In this document: piece after piece, positions 2 through 43,736 of the stretch
Layout of the letters: each line of letters begins with the position of its first letter
Numbering within the stretch: the first letter of the stretch is position 1
Assembly: GCA_020721965.1 (NCBI GenBank)
Contig: DYLS01000024.1
Coordinates: 108-48,307 of the forward strand
Reading direction: 5' to 3'
DNA length: 48,200 nt
DNA from: Blastopirellula marina
GTDB lineage: Bacteria > Planctomycetota > Planctomycetia > Pirellulales > Thermoguttaceae
Notes under the pieces: model-generated
The model's database searches: none
What the model was told of the DNA's origin: nothing
What the model saw: only the letters and a program-made list of their open reading frames with translations
Made by a program: the position numbers and the translations under genes

Positions 2-253
2 AAACCTTCACTCAACCAGAAACCTTCACTCAACCAGAAACCTTCACTCAACCAGAAACCTTCACTCAACCAGGAACCTTCACTTAACCAGGAACCCTCA
101 GTCCAGCAGAAGCCTTCATCCAACGAGGAACCTTCATCTAAGCAAGAACCTTCGCCTAAGGAAGAAGTTTCACCCAAGCAGAAAGTGGCATCTAGTCAGG
201 AAGTTTCGCCCAGCCAGGAAGTTTCGCCCAACGAGGAACTTTTACCCAGCCAG
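2..253 (+). repeat. 18-bp in-frame tandem repeat, 14 units
   Basis: The first four units (2-73) are identical: AAACCTTCACTCAACCAG. The next ten keep the 18-bp spacing but drift, ending with GAAGTTTCGCCCAGCCAG, GAAGTTTCGCCCAACGAG and GAACTTTTACCCAGCCAG. Each unit encodes six residues, from KPSLNQ through EPSSKQ to EVSPSQ. Unit identity rises toward the left edge, so the array probably continues outside the window. The length is always a multiple of three, so gain or loss of units keeps the frame. Confidence 0.95.
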
Positions 254-3200
254 TTGGTCCCGCTGGACCTGCGAGTCTTGGAAGCGACAGGCCGACACGC
301 CGCGGATGTTACGCTATCCACGGATCTGAAGAGCGAGCGGCAATTGCAAGTTGTAGGAAGAGTGGATGCCGAGCAACCTTTGGAGGTGCCAGCGTTGGAG
401 GAGTTCTTGTCGGGCACCCCGTCGGGCACGCCAGGCCTGCGATTCATGGATTTGGCGTCCCTGGACGGCGGCTGCGCCGTCAGGCTCATCCCTCGCGTCC
501 CGCAGCTCGACGTGCGTGGATTGTACCGAATTACTCTTGCTGCACAGGGCGTCAAGTCGGAACTCCGAGTCTCTGGCCGATGGGCGAGCGGCGTAAACGG
601 TCGCTTACGGATAGCGTTTATGGGGGGAATCGCCGCCCCAGCCCAAATTCAATGGGTTCTCCAGCGACCCGACGGCGTGGCCATGCCGAGCCAATCCCGC
701 CCGATTGAGGGCGGCCTCGAAGCCACTCGCCCCTCCAGCGAGGTTGCCGCCTCGACCGCCGTTTCCATGTGGGAAATGCAACTGCCGGAAGAGGCGGGCA
801 CCGATTTCATCTTGCTTGGCACGTGGGAAGGGGATCTGCCCGCAGGCCAGATCGCTCTACCATTTTTCCCCGATGACGCTGATGCCTCGGTAATCGTTCA
901 GTTGTTCCAATCGCGAGGTCAACGGTCGGGCCTGATGGTGCGCGGTTTGGAGTCCTTGCCGCTGAGCCTCGAAGATCAACCAGAGGGCTTTCTTTGGATG
1001 GGGACGTTCTCGTATGTGGCGTCCCCAGAAAGAATGGCCCCGACGGGCCGGGGCGCTCCCAGCATCATCATCACCCAAGGAGACCCGCCCTCTTGCGATA
1101 CTTGGGCAGATCAATACACCGTCCTGAGCGCGTTGGACGCCTCGGGCGGATTTCGTCACATCGTGCGCACCGGAGTGGATCGACTCTACGCGGAACGTCT
1201 TCGCTGGCGACTGCCCAGCGAGAGCGAGGAGTTTCGTGTGGTATCCGCCCGTATCAATGGACGTCCCGTACGCTGGAGGATTCGCGATACGGAGGAAGGT
1301 CGGGAGCTGATCCTGGAGACGTCATCTGATCCGCGGCGATGGGCGGTGGAAGTGGAGTGCGAGCAGTTGGCCCGGGGGGGCGGTATCCTGCATCGAACGG
1401 AAGCCGCTGTCCCGGTGCCGCTTTTCCCGGTGGCCTCGGTCCGTTGGATTCTATTTGTACCACCGGATCGGGAAGCCATATCGCCGGCCGACTTGACCCG
1501 GCTCAATCAGCGTTGGGGCGCGCTGCCGCAGCGATTGCTGGGACCCTTGAGGCGGCCGGAAGACCGTCCCATCTTCATTCTGGAGGAGATCAATCGCCTC
1601 CTGATGGACGCCCCCGCAGCCCCGCCGGACGCTGCTGTCCGCAAGGCAGATAACCTTTTGCGAGAGTTGGGGATGCAATGTCGGCGGTTGTTGGCCCCCC
1701 CCAGCGCGCGTTCCACAAAGCCCAATCCCACAAAGGTCGGCTCCCAAGAATCACCGTCCGGGGAGGGGCGTGCCGGAGGGAATGCCGTGGGACGAGCAAC
1801 GTTGATTACTTGGAGGGAGCTGTTCTCCGATTCGATGATCGAGGCTGCACACGGCCGACCGCCGTCAACCCGTGCCGTACTTTTTTTCGTCGACGCGGCT
1901 GAACTGAATCGGTCGGGAATCCGGCCGAGATCGCCCATCCCGCAGGTCATCTTGGAACATCTTCGTTCCGCTGTGGCGCGGGAACCGAATGACTTGGAGC
2001 TGGGCAAGACGGCGCTGCGAGAAATGGGATTGATTCTGTTGATCGGCCGCCGGTCTGTGCTTGTGACGGCCGAGGGGCTATTGCCGTTCTTGCGTGACGG
2101 CAACAATCTGGCCTGGAGCCGACCACCATTGTTCAAGCTGATCGCACACAGCGACTGGTGGGACCGCGTGGAACAAGCCGCTCTGGAGGACGGTACGGAT
2201 GGAATCTGCCGTATTCGGGCGTGGAACGAGTTGCCCACAATTGGACTGGAAAACGAAGAGGCGGAACTCGCCGGGGCCCAAGGCAGCCTCCTTTCCTTGG
2301 AGGTTCCCATCGCCAGCGGCTGGCGGGCCAAGCTGTTGGGAGAGGATTCCGTGTCGAATCCGTTGAAGGCGACGTTGTGGGTATTTCCCCGCGCCCTGAT
2401 AGATGCCTCGCGATGGGTCGGCTTGCTCTTTGCGCTGGCGATTTGCACAACGCTGCTCCGATCTCATCGTCGACTCATGGGGTTCCTTGCCGTGGCTTGC
2501 GTGATCGCCGAAGTGGTCGCACCGGATATCCTGATTCCGCTAATCTCCGGGGTATTCATGGGAACGGTGCTCGCCTTCCTAGGTTTGCTGTTGCTCCCGA
2601 TCGGGACAGGCCGCAAGCCGCATTGCCGCCGAACCGATAGTCAAGTCACGGGCAAGGTAGCCACGATCATGCTGATCGCGGCGGTCGCTACGTGCAGTTC
2701 AGAATCGGCTGATGCCGCCGAGGTTGCCAATACTTGGCGGCCCATGAATCAAGAACGGCTTTCTGCCGTCGCCTTTCCCGGGACGGATCGACGCGCGGCC
2801 GATTGTTTGGCCATGGCCGAGGATCAGCGGAGGCTGGAAGGCGCGCCCCCCCCGGCGGCTGGATTGGGAGCGAGTCCGGCCGCAGCACCCGTGGATAGCC
2901 CCACACCGCCTTATCGTATATTTGTGCCCACGGATGATCAGGGCCATCCCACCGGAAAGGAGATCTATCTCTCAGAAGATTTCTATCGAGAGATTCAGAG
3001 ACGAAAGAATGCGCTCTTGCAGCATATCCCGGCCTGGCTGTTGGTGTCGGCAGAGTACCAAGGAAGCCTCGTCTCAGGCATGGACACGGCCCAATACGTC
3101 TTGCCAGAACTCCGCGCCGTATGGGAATGCGTGACATTCAAGCCGGACGCTGAAGTCTCGTTTCGAGTAGGGGGAGATCAGGAGGGATCTGTTTCTGGGG

Positions 3201-6200
3201 GTGTCCTCGTGGATGGTCGGCCCGCCCTTGCGGCGGTCGAAGGGAACGTGGTCCGCTGCGTGATTTCCCAAGCTGGGCGGCATCGGATTCAGACGCAAAT
3301 CAAGCTGACTTCTCAGACCAGCGAATCGGCATCGGGCGTTCGCCTGCGGGTGCCGCCTGTCCCCAATTCTCGTATCGAGCTACAAATTTCTCCTGAGATT
3401 GCGAAGATCGAGGCGATTGGGGCGGCAGGGGCGGCATGGCGAGACCCCGAGGGAACGCACTGGACCGTGGCTCTGGGGGCGGCGGAGCTTGTTGTACTCC
3501 GCTGGTACGACCGCTCCACACTGCTCGGCAACGCCTTGTACGAGGCGGATGAGTTATCTCGACTTCAGATCGGTCCCACGGCTACCAGATTAGACGTTTT
3601 TTGGCGGTTGCGAGTGGTGGACGGTCGCCTAAGTCGCATCCGTGCGACCTTTCAGCCAGGCCTTCAATGGCTAGGCGTGGAAGGTCCTGCTCAGCCGGTG
3701 GCCCAGGTCATTTCGGAATCTGGGATCAGGCCCGTCTTGCAAATCGATTTTCCGCAGCCCGTGACGGATAGCACTTCCCTTCGCCTGATCTTCCAGGTTC
3801 AGGACGGCGGTGGATGGGGGCGAATGACGCTGCCCAGCGTTTCGCTCCTTGACGGCTCCGTCAACCGTCGCCGGTTGGCTGTGGCTACGGACTCGAGCAT
3901 TCGGCTTGGTTCCCAGGAGGTCCACGGTTGGGAACCGATCCCGATAGCCACGATTACCGATACCTGGCCGGAGTGCGGGACTGGCATCGTCGCGGCGTTC
4001 CAGGCTTTTTCGGGACGCACGTATTGGGCGGCGGTCACCGAACCCGTGCCGCGGGAACTCCTGGCCGATGAGACGGTCCAGCTTCGCGTTCGGCTAGATG
4101 CTGTCCTCGGTGGCTGGCAGTTCCTAATCCCCGCGGATCGCGATCCCCAGCCTTATTTTCGCATTCGTATCCCCTCGGAACTCAAGCCGCTGCGCATATC
4201 CTTGTATTACGGCGCGTCGGAACGACCAATACGCATCCCCGATTCCAGCGTGCTTCTGCTGTGGAACGAGACGGACTATCCGGGTGACCGCCGTATCGTT
4301 TTGGATGGAGAGATCGCCGTCTCCAGCAACGGGCAAGCCCGCGTGCCGAGGCCAGAATTGTTGAATGCCAAGCTGCGGACATCGAGCTGGAACATCTACC
4401 GCTCGCCCAAGACCCTGGCCGAAATCACCGAGGTGCGAGGATTGAACGCAGAACCGACCCAGCCCCCCGTCACAGAGGCTTCGGAGGACCTTCCTGTCGT
4501 CACGCTCGCCTCGCGTGATCCGCAAGACATCCAGGTCGTTTTGTCGGTGCGGCCCAATCATCCGCGAATTCGCGGCAAACGAATCCTGGTCCTGCAAAGA
4601 AGTCAGGACGAATGGGTTCTCGATGCCATATTTCCCCTGCTAGTAAAGGATGGGGCCGCCGATGAGCTTCGCTTGTCTCTTCCCCGCGGGAGCGTTGTCG
4701 AACTTCCGACCGCCTCCGCCGCGACCGTATTACCGGTGGAATCCGAGGAAAGCTCTGTTTATCGCCTTGTTGGGACGACTCCTTGGACCGGTAGTACCAC
4801 GGTGCGTGTGACGATGAAGTTGCCGGTCGGCTCAGGCGGGCGCCTGGTGATTCCATTTCCGGAGTTAGAAGAGGTCGAGCTAGAAGACTCCGTTCTTCTG
4901 TTGCCGCAGGAATGCACGCTGGAATCGCCCACAGAGGAGTTGGGTCAAGCCGCAATCCACGAGGTCGAATCGTTCACCGGCTTATCCCTGCCAGCATATC
5001 GTGGCTTTCGCTTGGAGGATAAGGAGTCCAGCAGCCGACAGACGAGCACGGAAGTACTGACCACCAGGACGCAGCAGGCACGCATCCCGTTCGCCCAGGT
5101 CATCGTAAGGCCAACGGGGGCAGATCGCTTCCTGGCGGCAATGACCCTTCATCTGGATGTCGGCGACTGGCAAGAGTTGCGAATCCACCTCCCGTCAGGG
5201 GGACGCATCATCCAGGCCTGGCAAGAGGGCAGTCCCTTGCCGATTCATACAACGATGTCAACCGGTCAGGTCAGCATTCCTTTATCGAAAAAGCCCCGCA
5301 CACGACTCGTAAACCTCGTATTCGAGGGCCGCTTCAACACCGCTAATGCTACTGGCACGGCACGGTTGGCGCTCCCACAATTCGACGTGCCTGTCGAAGC
5401 CTCTGTGTTCGCGGTGTATTCGGGTGAGAAACAACTGAGCACGCAGGGCAGTGCGTACTCAAGGATTCCTGCGTGGGAATACTATTCCGCGACAGCCCGG
5501 GCCTACCTGGATCGAATGTCCGAGCTTTTGGGTCATCCCAGCAGCGTTGACGAGGAGGCTCGCCGGCGATTCGAGTTCTGGCGGGAGGGCTTCGAATCCG
5601 CGAGAGAGGCGGCGAGGGCGATCCTTTTGCTCCGCGGTCAGCACCCGCAAGAAGGGGGATCGCCCGAGATGCGGCTAGCCAACCTGGAGCGAACGGCGTC
5701 ATCCATTCTCGAAAAAGCTCGCGAAGTCTTTCGCGGCGCCGCCTCCGAGCCGATGACGATCACGTTGCTGCCCCCCAGTGGCACGCTTCAAAGCTTTATC
5801 GAGGGCAATTTCTACGAAAGCTTGCGGGGCAACGCGGATTACTTGGCTGCATCCGAGTACCCTCGAGAACTGCGGATGATCTCCCCCCCCATTCCCCTGA
5901 CGGACAGAGATAGCCTTGTCCTCCTCGTAACGACCTCAGTCGTTGTGTTGTTGATCATGATTCCCTTGATCCCACGTCGGATCGCAACGGGTCTAGGACA
6001 CTGGGCAATGCGGTTCCCCCACCCTTTGGTCGTTCTTACCGGCCTGATGTGGTGGCTGTGGCTCAGCCCACCCTGGGTAGGTTGGCTATTCGTCGCCTTG
6101 GGGGTATATCTCGTCGTTCGCCCGAAATGGCGTCAGGTGCCCACAAAAGAAGCACCCGTGCCCATTATGTTGGATGACCCGCGGACGGGAACAATCTCAT

Positions 6201-6238
6201 CGGTTGGAAGCACGCTGGGACACGTTCCCAAACCGTAG
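2..6238 (+). CDS. Giant membrane protein, 5' end outside the window
   Basis: The reading frame is open from base 2 to the TAG at 6236-6238, giving 2078 visible residues. The first possible in-frame start is a GTG at 185, but it has no ribosome binding site and lies inside the repeat tract, so the real start is probably left of the window. Residues 1-84 are fourteen hydrophilic six-residue repeats (K/E-P-S-L-N-Q and variants). A mostly beta-rich region follows, then a membrane cluster at about residues 800-866, and a further hydrophobic stretch at about 884-905 that looks like an internal signal or anchor (KVATIMLIAAVATCSSESAD). Next come about 1060 more soluble residues, and at the C-terminus two hydrophobic segments (about 1970-2040) separated by a basic loop. 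I recognise no enzyme motif. The layout could be two ancestral secreted proteins fused head to tail. Function unknown, likely envelope. Confidence 0.8.
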   Translation, partial: KPSLNQKPSLNQKPSLNQKPSLNQEPSLNQEPSVQQKPSSNEEPSSKQEPSPKEEVSPKQKVASSQEVSPSQEVSPNEELLPSQLVPLDLRVLEATGRHAADVTLSTDLKSERQLQVVGRVDAEQPLEVPALEEFLSGTPSGTPGLRFMDLASLDGGCAVRLIPRVPQLDVRGLYRITLAAQGVKSELRVSGRWASGVNGRLRIAFMGGIAAPAQIQWVLQRPDGVAMPSQSRPIEGGLEATRPSSEVAASTAVSMWEMQLPEEAGTDFILLGTWEGDLPAGQIALPFFPDDADASVIVQLFQSRGQRSGLMVRGLESLPLSLEDQPEGFLWMGTFSYVASPERMAPTGRGAPSIIITQGDPPSCDTWADQYTVLSALDASGGFRHIVRTGVDRLYAERLRWRLPSESEEFRVVSARINGRPVRWRIRDTEEGRELILETSSDPRRWAVEVECEQLARGGGILHRTEAAVPVPLFPVASVRWILFVPPDREAISPADLTRLNQRWGALPQRLLGPLRRPEDRPIFILEEINRLLMDAPAAPPDAAVRKADNLLRELGMQCRRLLAPPSARSTKPNPTKVGSQESPSGEGRAGGNAVGRATLITWRELFSDSMIEAAHGRPPSTRAVLFFVDAAELNRSGIRPRSPIPQVILEHLRSAVAREPNDLELGKTALREMGLILLIGRRSVLVTAEGLLPFLRDGNNLAWSRPPLFKLIAHSDWWDRVEQAALEDGTDGICRIRAWNELPTIGLENEEAELAGAQGSLLSLEVPIASGWRAKLLGEDSVSNPLKATLWVFPRALIDASRWVGLLFALAICTTLLRSHRRLMGFLAVACVIAEVVAPDILIPLISGVFMGTVLAFLGLLLLPIGTGRKPHCRRTDSQVTGKVATIMLIAAVATCSSESADAAEVANTWRPMNQERLSAVAFPGTDRRAADCLAMAEDQRRLEGAPPPAAGLGASPAAAPVDSPTPPYRIFVPTDDQGHPTGKEIYLSEDFYREIQRRKNALLQHIPAWLLVSAEYQGSLVSGMDTAQYVLPELRAVWECVTFKPDAEVSFRVGGDQEGSVSGGVLVDGRPALAAVEGNVVRCVISQAGRHRIQTQIKLTSQTSESASGVRLRVPPVPNSRIELQISPEIAKIEAIGAAGAAWRDPEGTHWTVALGAAELVVLRWYDRSTLLGNALYEADELSRLQIGPTATRLDVFWRLRVVDGRLSRIRATFQPGLQWLGVEGPAQPVAQVISESGIRPVLQIDFPQPVTDSTSLRLIFQVQDGGGWGRMTLPSVSLLDGSVNRRRLAVATDSSIRLGSQEVHGWEPIPIATITDTWPECGTGIVAAFQAFSGRTYWAAVTEPVPRELLADETVQLRVRLDAVLGGWQFLIPADRDPQPYFRIRIPSELKPLRISLYYGASERPIRIPDSSVLLLWNETDYPGDRRIVLDGEIAVSSNGQARVPRPELLNAKLRTSSWNIYRSPKTLAEITEVRGLNAEPTQPPVTEASEDLPVVTLASRDPQDIQVVLSVRPNHPRIRGKRILVLQRSQDEWVLDAIFPLLVKDGAADELRLSLPRGSVVELPTASAATVLPVESEESSVYRLVGTTPWTGSTTVRVTMKLPVGSGGRLVIPFPELEEVELEDSVLLLPQECTLESPTEELGQAAIHEVESFTGLSLPAYRGFRLEDKESSSRQTSTEVLTTRTQQARIPFAQVIVRPTGADRFLAAMTLHLDVGDWQELRIHLPSGGRIIQAWQEGSPLPIHTTMSTGQVSIPLSKKPRTRLVNLVFEGRFNTANATGTARLALPQFDVPVEASVFAVYSGEKQLSTQGSAYSRIPAWEYYSATARAYLDRMSELLGHPSSVDEEARRRFEFWREGFESAREAARAILLLRGQHPQEGGSPEMRLANLERTASSILEKAREVFRGAASEPMTITLLPPSGTLQSFIEGNFYESLRGNADYLAASEYPRELRMISPPIPLTDRDSLVLLVTTSVVVLLIMIPLIPRRIATGLGHWAMRFPHPLVVLTGLMWWLWLSPPWVGWLFVALGVYLVVRPKWRQVPTKEAPVPIMLDDPRTGTISSVGSTLGHVPKP

Positions 6239-6752
6239 AGCACGGGCATCGAGGTGACGTTGATGTAGGCACTGCATGGAGGTGGGAACTCGCACGGGGG
6301 CGCGAGCACTCCGGGCAAAAAGTCTGTAGCCGATTCCGTGGCCTGCATGGTGGTGCCTGGGAGCGTGGTGTGCGTAAGCACGGAATCGCGAACGCGGCGA
6401 ACAAAAACTGGGCCGCGATGGAGGGGCACGCTCAGGATCACGAGGATTGCGATGGGGCGGGGTTTGTCTGCCCCGATTCCCGGCCGGGATTTCGTTTCGT
6501 TCGCGCGATCCTGTGCCTCGCAGTCCTTGTGCTCCCGGTGTTCGATTTCTTTTGGCGGCTGAGCTTCCGCCGGTTCGCGCGATCCTCTTCCGCTCAGCCC
6601 TGGTGCTCGCGTGAAAAAGGGAATTGCCGCCTTTCGCGTTTCGGGAGCCTGTCATGCGGCACGGCATTTGCTAATATGCAGTAGTCGGGATGAGAGATTC
6701 TCGCAACGGACCCTGTCGCGTACAACTCTCCGAATCGCTGTAAAGGTGAATC
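6239..6752. other. Intergenic region, 514 bp
   Basis: The stretch lies between the giant membrane protein and the amidotransferase. Short frames occur on both strands but none has a recognisable domain or a good ribosome binding site. I see no convincing terminator hairpin after 6238 and no repeat. A promoter for the next gene presumably lies here, but I cannot place it. Confidence 0.5.
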
Positions 6753-12868: not shown

Positions 12869-12955
12869 GGATGGGTGGCCGAGTGGTCTAAGGCGGCAGT
12901 CTTGAAAACTGCTGTACCCGTTCGGGTACCGGGGGTTCGAATCCCTTCCCATCCG
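12869..12955 (+). tRNA. tRNA-Ser (anticodon UGA)
   Basis: This is an 87-nt class II tRNA. The acceptor strands GGATGGG (12869-12875) and CCCATCC (12948-12954) pair perfectly, followed by discriminator G. The anticodon arm is GCAGT-CTTGAAA-ACTGC, giving anticodon TGA. The long variable arm (TACCCG-TTC-CGGGTA type) is typical of serine. The T arm is GGGGG-TTCGAAT-CCCTT with one imperfect pair. CCA is not encoded; the 3' flank reads CTCTATCC. Confidence 0.97.
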
Positions 12956-14093
12956 CTCTATCCACCTGCGGACTGAAAGGTTGCGTTCCAACGGCCCGTT
13001 AGTGCTATATTGCTGGGTTGTTCTCAACATCTTGTGGTGATGGGAAACAACGCATTGCAACGTATGGTGGGCGCGTCATGCAGGCACACGGACTTTGCGC
13101 TGTAGGATCAGGAAACCTTTGCACTGTAGGGTTAGGAAACGGCCCTGGCCTGGGCCGTTCTTGGTGGTGAATCATCGGTTCGCCCGGTGGAATGTTCACC
13201 CGGGACTGTCAAAGGGGCACCAGCACGTGTCGCGGACAACGCGTTTGCGGATGGCGACTTCGCCGTCGTGGACCGGGAGCAGGAAGTTACGACGGCCCCA
13301 TGCCTGGCGGTAGCTGTGTGAAGCGGCTGGACCAGCCGATAGTTACGCGGGCGGTGATCCGGAGGGTGAGCAAAATCGTTCTCTGGAGCCGGTGCAATGT
13401 CCCGGTGACAGGTCGCGATTGACGCTCTTGTCTTGACACGTGGTGCACGCCCAGTTCACCCGTCGGGCTTTTTCCCGAGAGGGCAGCAAGACGGCACGCG
13501 ACTGGGATATCCAGGGGCTGGCACGCAGATTTCGTGGAGCAACAGCCCAGGTTTGTAACCGTTTACGGAACATGCGGGGTGTCACGGCGTTTTGGCCACG
13601 ACATCCTGTGCTTCGCTTCAGCGATCGGCGGCCACGAGCATGGCGTTTTTGCTATACGACTCGTGAAAGCACCACGTTTTCCGCCACCCGTGAACGGTTA
13701 CCAGGTTCGTTTGAAAGCGGGGAGACACGGAGCCCCAAGTGAATCCCCCTTTGACACTCTGCCCCTTATTTACCTATAATCAATCGCAGATATTGAGCGT
13801 TTCATGTGCTCGCCACGCCATACCACGAGTCCTGGTGGTACAGAAGGACTTGGTAGGGCAGTCGGCAAGCGGCTACCTGGTATTCGGGTGGGCGCCTGGT
13901 GTGTATTCCCCACCATGCCTAAAAGCGATGGACTTCGCAGCATAGGTTGATCCACGCCTCGCTGCGTTTATGCTCACCGCGCATCCGAGTGGTGTAGGTC
14001 AGTCGCATCAGGCAGGCTTGTGCAGGTAGTTTCTGTAGGTAGTTTCTGTTGAGTTGCTAAATTGGGGGTAAAAGCCGGCATGGCGCATGATAG
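12956..14093. other. Gene-poor region between two tRNAs, 1138 bp
   Basis: It holds the first copy of the dispersed repeat (near 13001-13108) with its duplicated 24-nt tail, and a 13-bp tandem duplication of GTAGGTAGTTTCT (second unit 14034-14046, first unit GCAGGTAGTTTCT just before it). No frame here resembles a protein I know. The interval from 13141 to about 14020 has nothing else I can support. Confidence 0.5.
13001..13140 (+). repeat. MITE-like dispersed repeat, copy A, with duplicated tail
   Basis: The copy starts TTAGTGCTATATTGCTGG (left terminus degraded). It keeps the conserved core CTCAACATCTTGTGGTGATG and ends GGACTTTGCGCTGTAGGATC. Its core is identical over 34 bp to copy B, and another 27 bp before the right end is also identical to B. 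The right terminus is duplicated in tandem as two 24-nt units, 13093-13116 (CTTTGCGCTGTAGGATCAGG and AAAC) and 13117-13140 (CTTTGCACTGTAGGGTTAGG and AAAC). The copy is non-coding and lies just after tRNA-Ser. Confidence 0.85.
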
Positions 14094-14166
14094 GGACAGG
14101 TAGCTCAGTTGGTAGAGCACTGGACTGAAAATCCAGGTGTCGGCGGTTCAATCCCGCCCCTGTCCA
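14094..14166 (+). tRNA. tRNA-Phe (anticodon GAA)
   Basis: This is a 73-nt standard cloverleaf. Acceptor GGACAGG pairs with CCTGTCC (14159-14165), with discriminator A. The D arm is GCTC-AGTTGGTA-GAGC, the anticodon arm CTGGA-CTGAAAA-TCCAG (anticodon GAA), and the T arm GGCGG-TTCAATC-CCGCC. All stems pair fully. CCA is not encoded. It is bracketed by repeat copies A and B. Confidence 0.97.
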
Positions 14167-36032: not shown

Positions 36033-36213
36033 GTCAAGACTCTGGACCCTGAAGACTTTGGACCCTGAAGACTCTGGGGACTGAAGACTCTGGAACCTGA
36101 AGACTTTGAGGTTTGAAGCTTCGGAGGCTGAAGCTTCGGGGGCTGAAGCTTCGGGGGCTGAGGCTTGGGGGGTGAAGCTTTGGGGCCAGAAGACTCTGGC
36201 GACTGAAGATTTC
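36033..36213. repeat. 15-16-bp imperfect minisatellite, about 11 units
   Basis: Two unit types alternate in blocks: CCTGAAGACTTTGGA and CTGAAGACTCTGGGG types at both ends (36047-36110 and 36186-36213), and GCTGAAGCTTCGGGG types in the middle (36111-36180). Spacing is 16 bp in the first block and mostly 15 bp in the middle, with one 14-bp step, so the array does not keep a reading frame and is not coding. The middle units contain the palindrome GAAGCTTC. Confidence 0.9.
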
Positions 36214-43105: not shown

Positions 43106-43736
43106 GAAGTACTTCGCCCGGAGGTCCTGCTTGCGTCTTTTACCGGCATGGCCTTCCGGCAAAGGGTCCGGTTGGCCATGTCGGGCTGCCGAGGATTGTG
43201 AGCCGTCCGCTGAGTCACGTCACCTTTTGCACCCGTCCGTGCGCACCTGCCCGCGACGCCTGGCGAGGAGCCCGCCGCACATGAAGATGACCGCTTATGG
43301 CTGCTGACTTTCGTCCCTGACCAGGTTCGCGGCTCCCCATTGCGGGGACCCCTCGCCGGACGCCGCACAGGCAGATCGCTCTACACCCGACAGCATCGGT
43401 ATTCCCCTGTTTTACGCGATCCGATATAGGCCGTCAAATGGGGTCGTGTTTTTCGAGGTGGCCCTAGCAACGGATTAGCGCCACAACGCAAGTTTGTGCG
43501 ATTGGTTCAACACATCGCGGTGATGGGACATGACGCCTTGCAATCCATGCCGTGCCTCTCATGCAGTGGGACGGCCTTTGCGCTGCAGGACCTTTGGACT
43601 AAAGGGCCTTTGCGCTGTAGGGCTTTTGCGCTGTAGGATAGTTGGGACGCGAGTCGGTGCTTGTGGGCTATGATTGAGTATGGCTTTGCGGACGGCCTGT
43701 GAATGGCAGAGTAACCTTGCGTGAGGACGCCAGAAA
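43106..43736. other. Divergent intergenic region, 631 bp
   Basis: The region separates dnaX (minus) from wecB (plus). Its right half is repeat copy E with a fourfold tail. The left half (43163-43470) has only short frames and one small CCCC/GGGG hairpin. Promoters for both genes must be here, possibly overlapping the repeat on the wecB side. Confidence 0.5.
43476..43638 (+). repeat. MITE-like dispersed repeat, copy E, with 4x16-nt tail
   Basis: It reads TAGCGCCACAACGCAAGTTT, then core TTCAACACATCGCGGTGATG and ACGCCTTGCAATCCATGCC. The right terminus is present four times in exact 16-nt steps: CCTTTGCGCTGCAGGA (43575), CCTTTGGACTAAAGGG (43591), CCTTTGCGCTGTAGGG (43607) and CTTTTGCGCTGTAGGA (43623). 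The array ends 98 bases before the wecB start codon. Confidence 0.85.

Follow-up and report, generated by a model that had tools for sequence, protein, structure and literature searches.

In the R regions of staphylococcal ClfA and Fbl, which belong to the Clf-Sdr family, in-frame 18-bp units encode hexapeptides, and the number of units varies between strains (PMC6533592, PMC3025037). This repeat is placed directly ahead of a wall anchor at the C-terminus and has been described as the stalk of a ligand-binding domain (PMC6533592, PMC3025037). The aaTRs of Borg elements are recent in-frame repeats with units divisible by three, through which exported or membrane proteins gain new disordered regions, the repeats being absent from their homologues (PMC9879509). 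Here we describe an 18-bp tandem array within the gene for a giant membrane protein of a planctomycete. The window, the whole stretch of 48,200 nucleotides that was analysed, corresponds to G000:C264:108-48307, and a second contig of the same genome, C40 (5768 bp), was included in the analysis. We hold with good confidence that in this array one Thermogutta species carries an in-frame minisatellite of recent origin, which arose from the gene's own 18 bp and probably forms a tolerated, disordered periplasmic loop with a varying number of units.

An in-frame hexapeptide array in a giant membrane protein gene

The right-hand part of the array was located at positions 2-253 of the window on the + strand, within the frame of the ORF at 2-6238. 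It is 252 bp long and consists of 14 units of 18 bp without indels or stops; as the array on C264 is readable from C264:108 rightward, 14 is a lower bound on the unit count. The order of units from the left is KPSLNQ (four times), EPSLNQ, EPSVQQ, KPSSNE, EPSSKQ, EPSPKE, EVSPKQ, KVASSQ, EVSPSQ, EVSPNE, and ELLPSQ, the last (236-253, + strand) being joined to LVPLDL. The leading four units (2-73, + strand) share the identical DNA sequence AAACCTTCACTCAACCAG, with period-18 identity unbroken over positions 1-73, and the later units are diverged. Lag-18 identity of the array was 0.78, against 0.29 ± 0.03 in 20,000 codon shuffles (shuffle maximum 0.42), and Tandem Repeats Finder reported the array as period-18 rows with a score of up to 188. 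With head-to-tail units above chance, a unit length that is a multiple of three and an open frame, the array has the structure of a coding VNTR. These findings confirm the original prediction of an in-frame 18-bp hexapeptide array. The increase of identity toward the left, which had also been proposed, holds for the four identical leftmost units but not as a gradient, since the 13 distinct units showed no significant rise of divergence with the distance between them (r = 0.09; 1236 of 5000 permutations as high). As judged from their sequence, the homogeneous KPSLNQ units at 2-73 appear to be the latest-copied part of the array.

The array-bearing gene encodes a giant membrane protein of two modules. 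ORF and homologue analyses placed its 3' part, open to the left, at 2-6238 (+ strand) and its 5' part at C40:3994-5768. The N-terminus, encoded on C40, is signal-peptide-like, with hydrophobic residues at 12-30. By hydropathy, hydrophobic membrane segments ending the first module were detected at 2489-2596 (+ strand; residues 746-781 after the array), and C-terminal membrane segments at 5915-6118 (+ strand). The second module, at 2912-4351 (+ strand), and the first, which bears the array, are homologous (hhalign probability 99.7, E = 2.4e-25, 451 columns). The giant membrane protein anticipated from the window was thus recovered with a signal peptide, membrane segments and two related modules. 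Counted without the array, the protein has about 2550 residues, and the array enters it at about residue 555, flanked on either side by a conserved module. Since the signal peptide precedes it and the first clear membrane segments follow it, the array should face the periplasm, and a periplasmic location is probable.

Relatives of the giant protein were found in 105 of the 119 genomes of the family. Searches of Pfam and NCBIfam gave nothing significant for either the giant protein or its upstream neighbour, and no relative of the giant protein was detected by sequence in the PDB. The upstream gene of 1226 aa looks like a more distant relative (hhalign values of 98.2 and 97.3). L004 (G000:C40):317-5768 and window 2-6238 together seem to carry three copies of one family-conserved module.

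Other repeats and RNA genes were also observed in the window. A dispersed repeat is composed of the core CTCAACATCTTGTGGTGATGGGA and, about 50-75 bp on, CTTTGCGCTGTAGGA. Its copies in the window lie at 13021, 14367 (+), 27279 (−), 38569 (+, diverged), and about 43516 (+, diverged). This repeat gave 154 matches at ≤3 mismatches in this genome against 0 in the reversed control; a search of 40 further genomes from the family at ≤2 mismatches detected none, and its sites gave no Rfam match. The repeat resembles a short interspersed element that is specific to the species, and its end makes up the tandem arrays at 43575-43638 and 13093-13140. At 36036-36192, in an apparently intergenic region, two further tandem arrays adjoin each other, with unit lengths of 16 bp and about 15 bp (AAGACTCTGGACCCTG; TGAAGCTTCGGGGGC). 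The RNA genes are a small SRP RNA gene at 43259-43357 (− strand) and two tRNA genes at 12869-12955 and 14094-14166 (+ strand).

Left flank and two sequence forms of the array

The right end of C40 was found to carry the same array as the left end of C264. The array therefore extends past the window edge, in agreement with the original prediction, against which an array ending at this edge with a normal gene start, together with identical counts in all strains, would have spoken. No start is located there: the gene begins about 1.66 kb further left, at C40:3994, where it overlaps by 4 bases (ATGA) with the stop of the upstream 1226-aa gene. C40 and C264 were joined into one gene because the two halves are contiguous in the nearest relative, G001. 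The C40 part encodes 555 residues up to ELLPDE (C40:5641-5658), followed by KLSSNQ, KPSLNQ, KPSLNQ, KPSLNQ (with a TTA codon), EPSVQQ, and KPSSNE up to the contig end. As the giant gene is split by the repeat over two contigs, genome annotations will show two truncated genes.

The array sequences of the two contigs are not the same throughout. The final 55 bp of C40 is identical to C264:182-236, and the base preceding this shared sequence is A in C40 (K unit) and G in C264 (E unit). Four units stand ahead of EPSVQQ in C40 against at least five in C264, and units further left also differ. The uninterrupted period-18 run is 54 bp in C40 and at least 73 bp in C264. The exact 55-bp overlap with two left sides resembles a branch of an assembly graph with k = 55, and k of 55 resolves only the shorter type of period-18 run, as in C40. 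Two forms of the array were thus sequenced, and they would most simply be length variants. If the two forms are taken as alleles, their total lengths differ by at least 2 units, as C40 would have 13 units provided that it runs on into the shared right end, and C264 at least 15 provided that it starts with KLSSNQ. Unit counts differing by whole units had been expected, and a sign of such differences is seen in the four versus at least five units before EPSVQQ at one assembly branch. This one branch suggests that the number of units may vary between cells or isolates.

The two forms could also be parts of a single longer array with higher-order duplication, holding two copies of the EPSVQQ-KPSSNE stretch, one of them preceded by a K-type and the other by an E-type unit. 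Locally, this would give the same assembly graph, with an identical 55-bp overlap and two different sequences before it, but such an array has to be larger and to have a second, unseen continuation beyond the shared 55 bp, and the array is present in the whole genome only at the contig ends of C40 and C264. We consider a single array of this kind possible though rather unlikely; it concerns the variation only, and is compatible with the same origin of the array.

Empty site in homologues and origin of the array

Whether the two forms are length variants or not, the origin of the array is indicated by comparison with homologues. The nearest relative, G001 (Thermogutta sp. MAG AS27yjCOA_190), encodes in one ORF on one contig a protein of 57% identity (63% for the N-terminal and 55% for the C-terminal part), without an insert at the array point. 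The N-terminal match in G001 ends at 6571 and the C-terminal match starts at 6578; only 6 bp lies between them, and the array is absent. The match to this MAG assigns the window to the genus Thermogutta. At the junction, HPREVAPCE is joined to LVPLDM in G001, whereas here ARELLPDE is followed by the array, and its last unit ELLPSQ is joined to LVPLDL. The insert was absent at this point from all 19 full-length homologues of the family (G001 and 18 others), for which the alignment gave a strand-like stretch, about 10 residues, and then an LLPLRF-like motif. No match to the array DNA was detected among 396 other genomes of the order, and a search with the array unit at ≤2 mismatches found this unit nowhere else in its own genome. 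One homologue from another genus of the family, L045, carries 60-bp tandem units at L045:7214-7463, away from the array point; this is the only other strong array detected by Tandem Repeats Finder in these homologue genes.

The left-flank hexapeptide ELLPDE shares 14 of 18 bases with the last unit ELLPSQ and 15 of 18 with EVSPNE, and shows 7 differences from the KPSLNQ units. The resemblance of the outer hexapeptides ELLPDE and ELLPSQ to each other and to the uninterrupted motif points to growth from the gene's own 18 bp. Most likely, the array grew by tandem duplication of this sequence, and relics were left at both ends, the last unit at 236-253 being the likely ancestral segment. In the proposed mechanism, about 18 bp would have been duplicated in tandem at a conserved point of the membrane-anchored, signal-peptide-bearing module, the ancestral RE[L/V]xPx[E/Q] before LVPLD, and we infer that further growth took place via slippage or unequal recombination. 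Old, diverged units would then end at the edges, with the freshly copied, identical KPSLNQ units inside. Because one unit is equal to six codons, each gain or loss would change only the length of the loop, and the frame would always be kept. The unit number would vary in the population, and the loop would be tolerated by the flanking folded parts.

The array peptide, at least 84 residues long, is hydrophilic and rich in Pro, Ser, Glu, Lys and Gln, with Asn also present. From this composition, it presumably forms a disordered loop, and both the placement of the loop and the folded state of its neighbours are suggested by composition and alignment. AlphaFold2 prediction of the junction in the array-free G001 orthologue, with a two-row alignment, gave a mean pLDDT of 40 (about 20-25 around the junction) and was unusable. 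Synonymous changes between units were 22.5, against 18.0 ± 3.0 in the neutral simulation (229 of 3000 runs as high; p of about 0.08). The peptide is thus not clearly distinguishable from neutral, with no good evidence for selection; the borderline synonymous excess makes mild selection on the peptide possible. These values are consistent with a nearly neutral array.

The surface stalk of the original prediction is not supported by these comparisons, as the array interrupts an exported module internally, at a point that is conserved, and is missing from every full-length homologue. As in staphylococcal clumping factors, the array could be a selected, length-tunable spacer or stalk, which extends an exposed protein's N-terminal part outward and adjusts reach or adhesion by the number of units. 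The unit length (18 bp, six residues) is the same as that of the clumping-factor repeat, the Pro/Ser-rich peptide is hydrophilic, the protein is exported, and two array forms are present in the assembly; however, conserved protein flanks the array on both sides, the array-free homologues include one of the same genus, the peptide is under no clear constraint, and Pfam and NCBIfam revealed neither an adhesion domain nor a cell-wall anchor. Such a stalk is unlikely, and a tolerated, species-specific insert is favoured over it. Still less probable is that the array serves as a functional, population-variable length tuner of this family of giant two-module membrane proteins; if so, the geometry of the first exported module would be altered by the unit number. 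Tandem repeats are a known cause of wrong counts and of breaks in short-read assemblies (PMC6868369), and the contigs do break at the array. An assembly artefact is nevertheless the least credible reading; with two contigs carrying the array independently, diverged and unique sequences in most units, and the frame kept throughout, it is effectively refuted for the existence of the array, and could concern the unit count only.

Comparison with known repeat systems

The favoured reading of a minisatellite in a tolerated loop was compared with known repeat systems. Membership in the Mycoplasma cytadhesin P30/P32 family (PF07271) was rejected (E = 0.4; 10.7 bits against the cut-off of 40), the likeness to P30 being a weak composition match of a Pro-rich repeat only. 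A Ser-Asp repeat was also rejected, since D occurs once among the 96 residues analysed. The array resembles the R regions of ClfA and Fbl in its in-frame 18-bp hexapeptide units, its hydrophilic spacer and its exported protein. In contrast to these, it is internal, is found in one species, belongs to an unrelated planctomycete protein, and carries KPSLNQ instead of SD residues. Membership in the Clf-Sdr R regions was rejected because both position and residues differ: an R region links a ligand-binding domain to its C-terminal anchor, whereas the array lies around residue 555 of some 2550.

As a coding repeat, the array is a clean example with a readable origin, in that its ends recall the gene sequence, the inner units are homogenised, and the empty site is present in homologues. 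It lends itself to studies on the origin of disordered inserts in bacterial proteins, and is otherwise of an ordinary repeat kind. With the Borg aaTRs, the array shares the recent formation, the open frame, the unit length divisible by three, the setting in an exported or membrane protein, and the lack of the repeat in homologues (here 19 of 19 full-length ones), disorder being suggested here by composition. In Borgs, which are archaeal extrachromosomal elements, such repeats occur abundantly throughout the genome and are almost perfect, whereas here one imperfect array with decayed edges lies in a bacterial genome bin. By analogy, the array appears to work in the same way as the Borg aaTRs, and it belongs to a known kind of repeat, the in-frame expansion that gives a presumably disordered loop.
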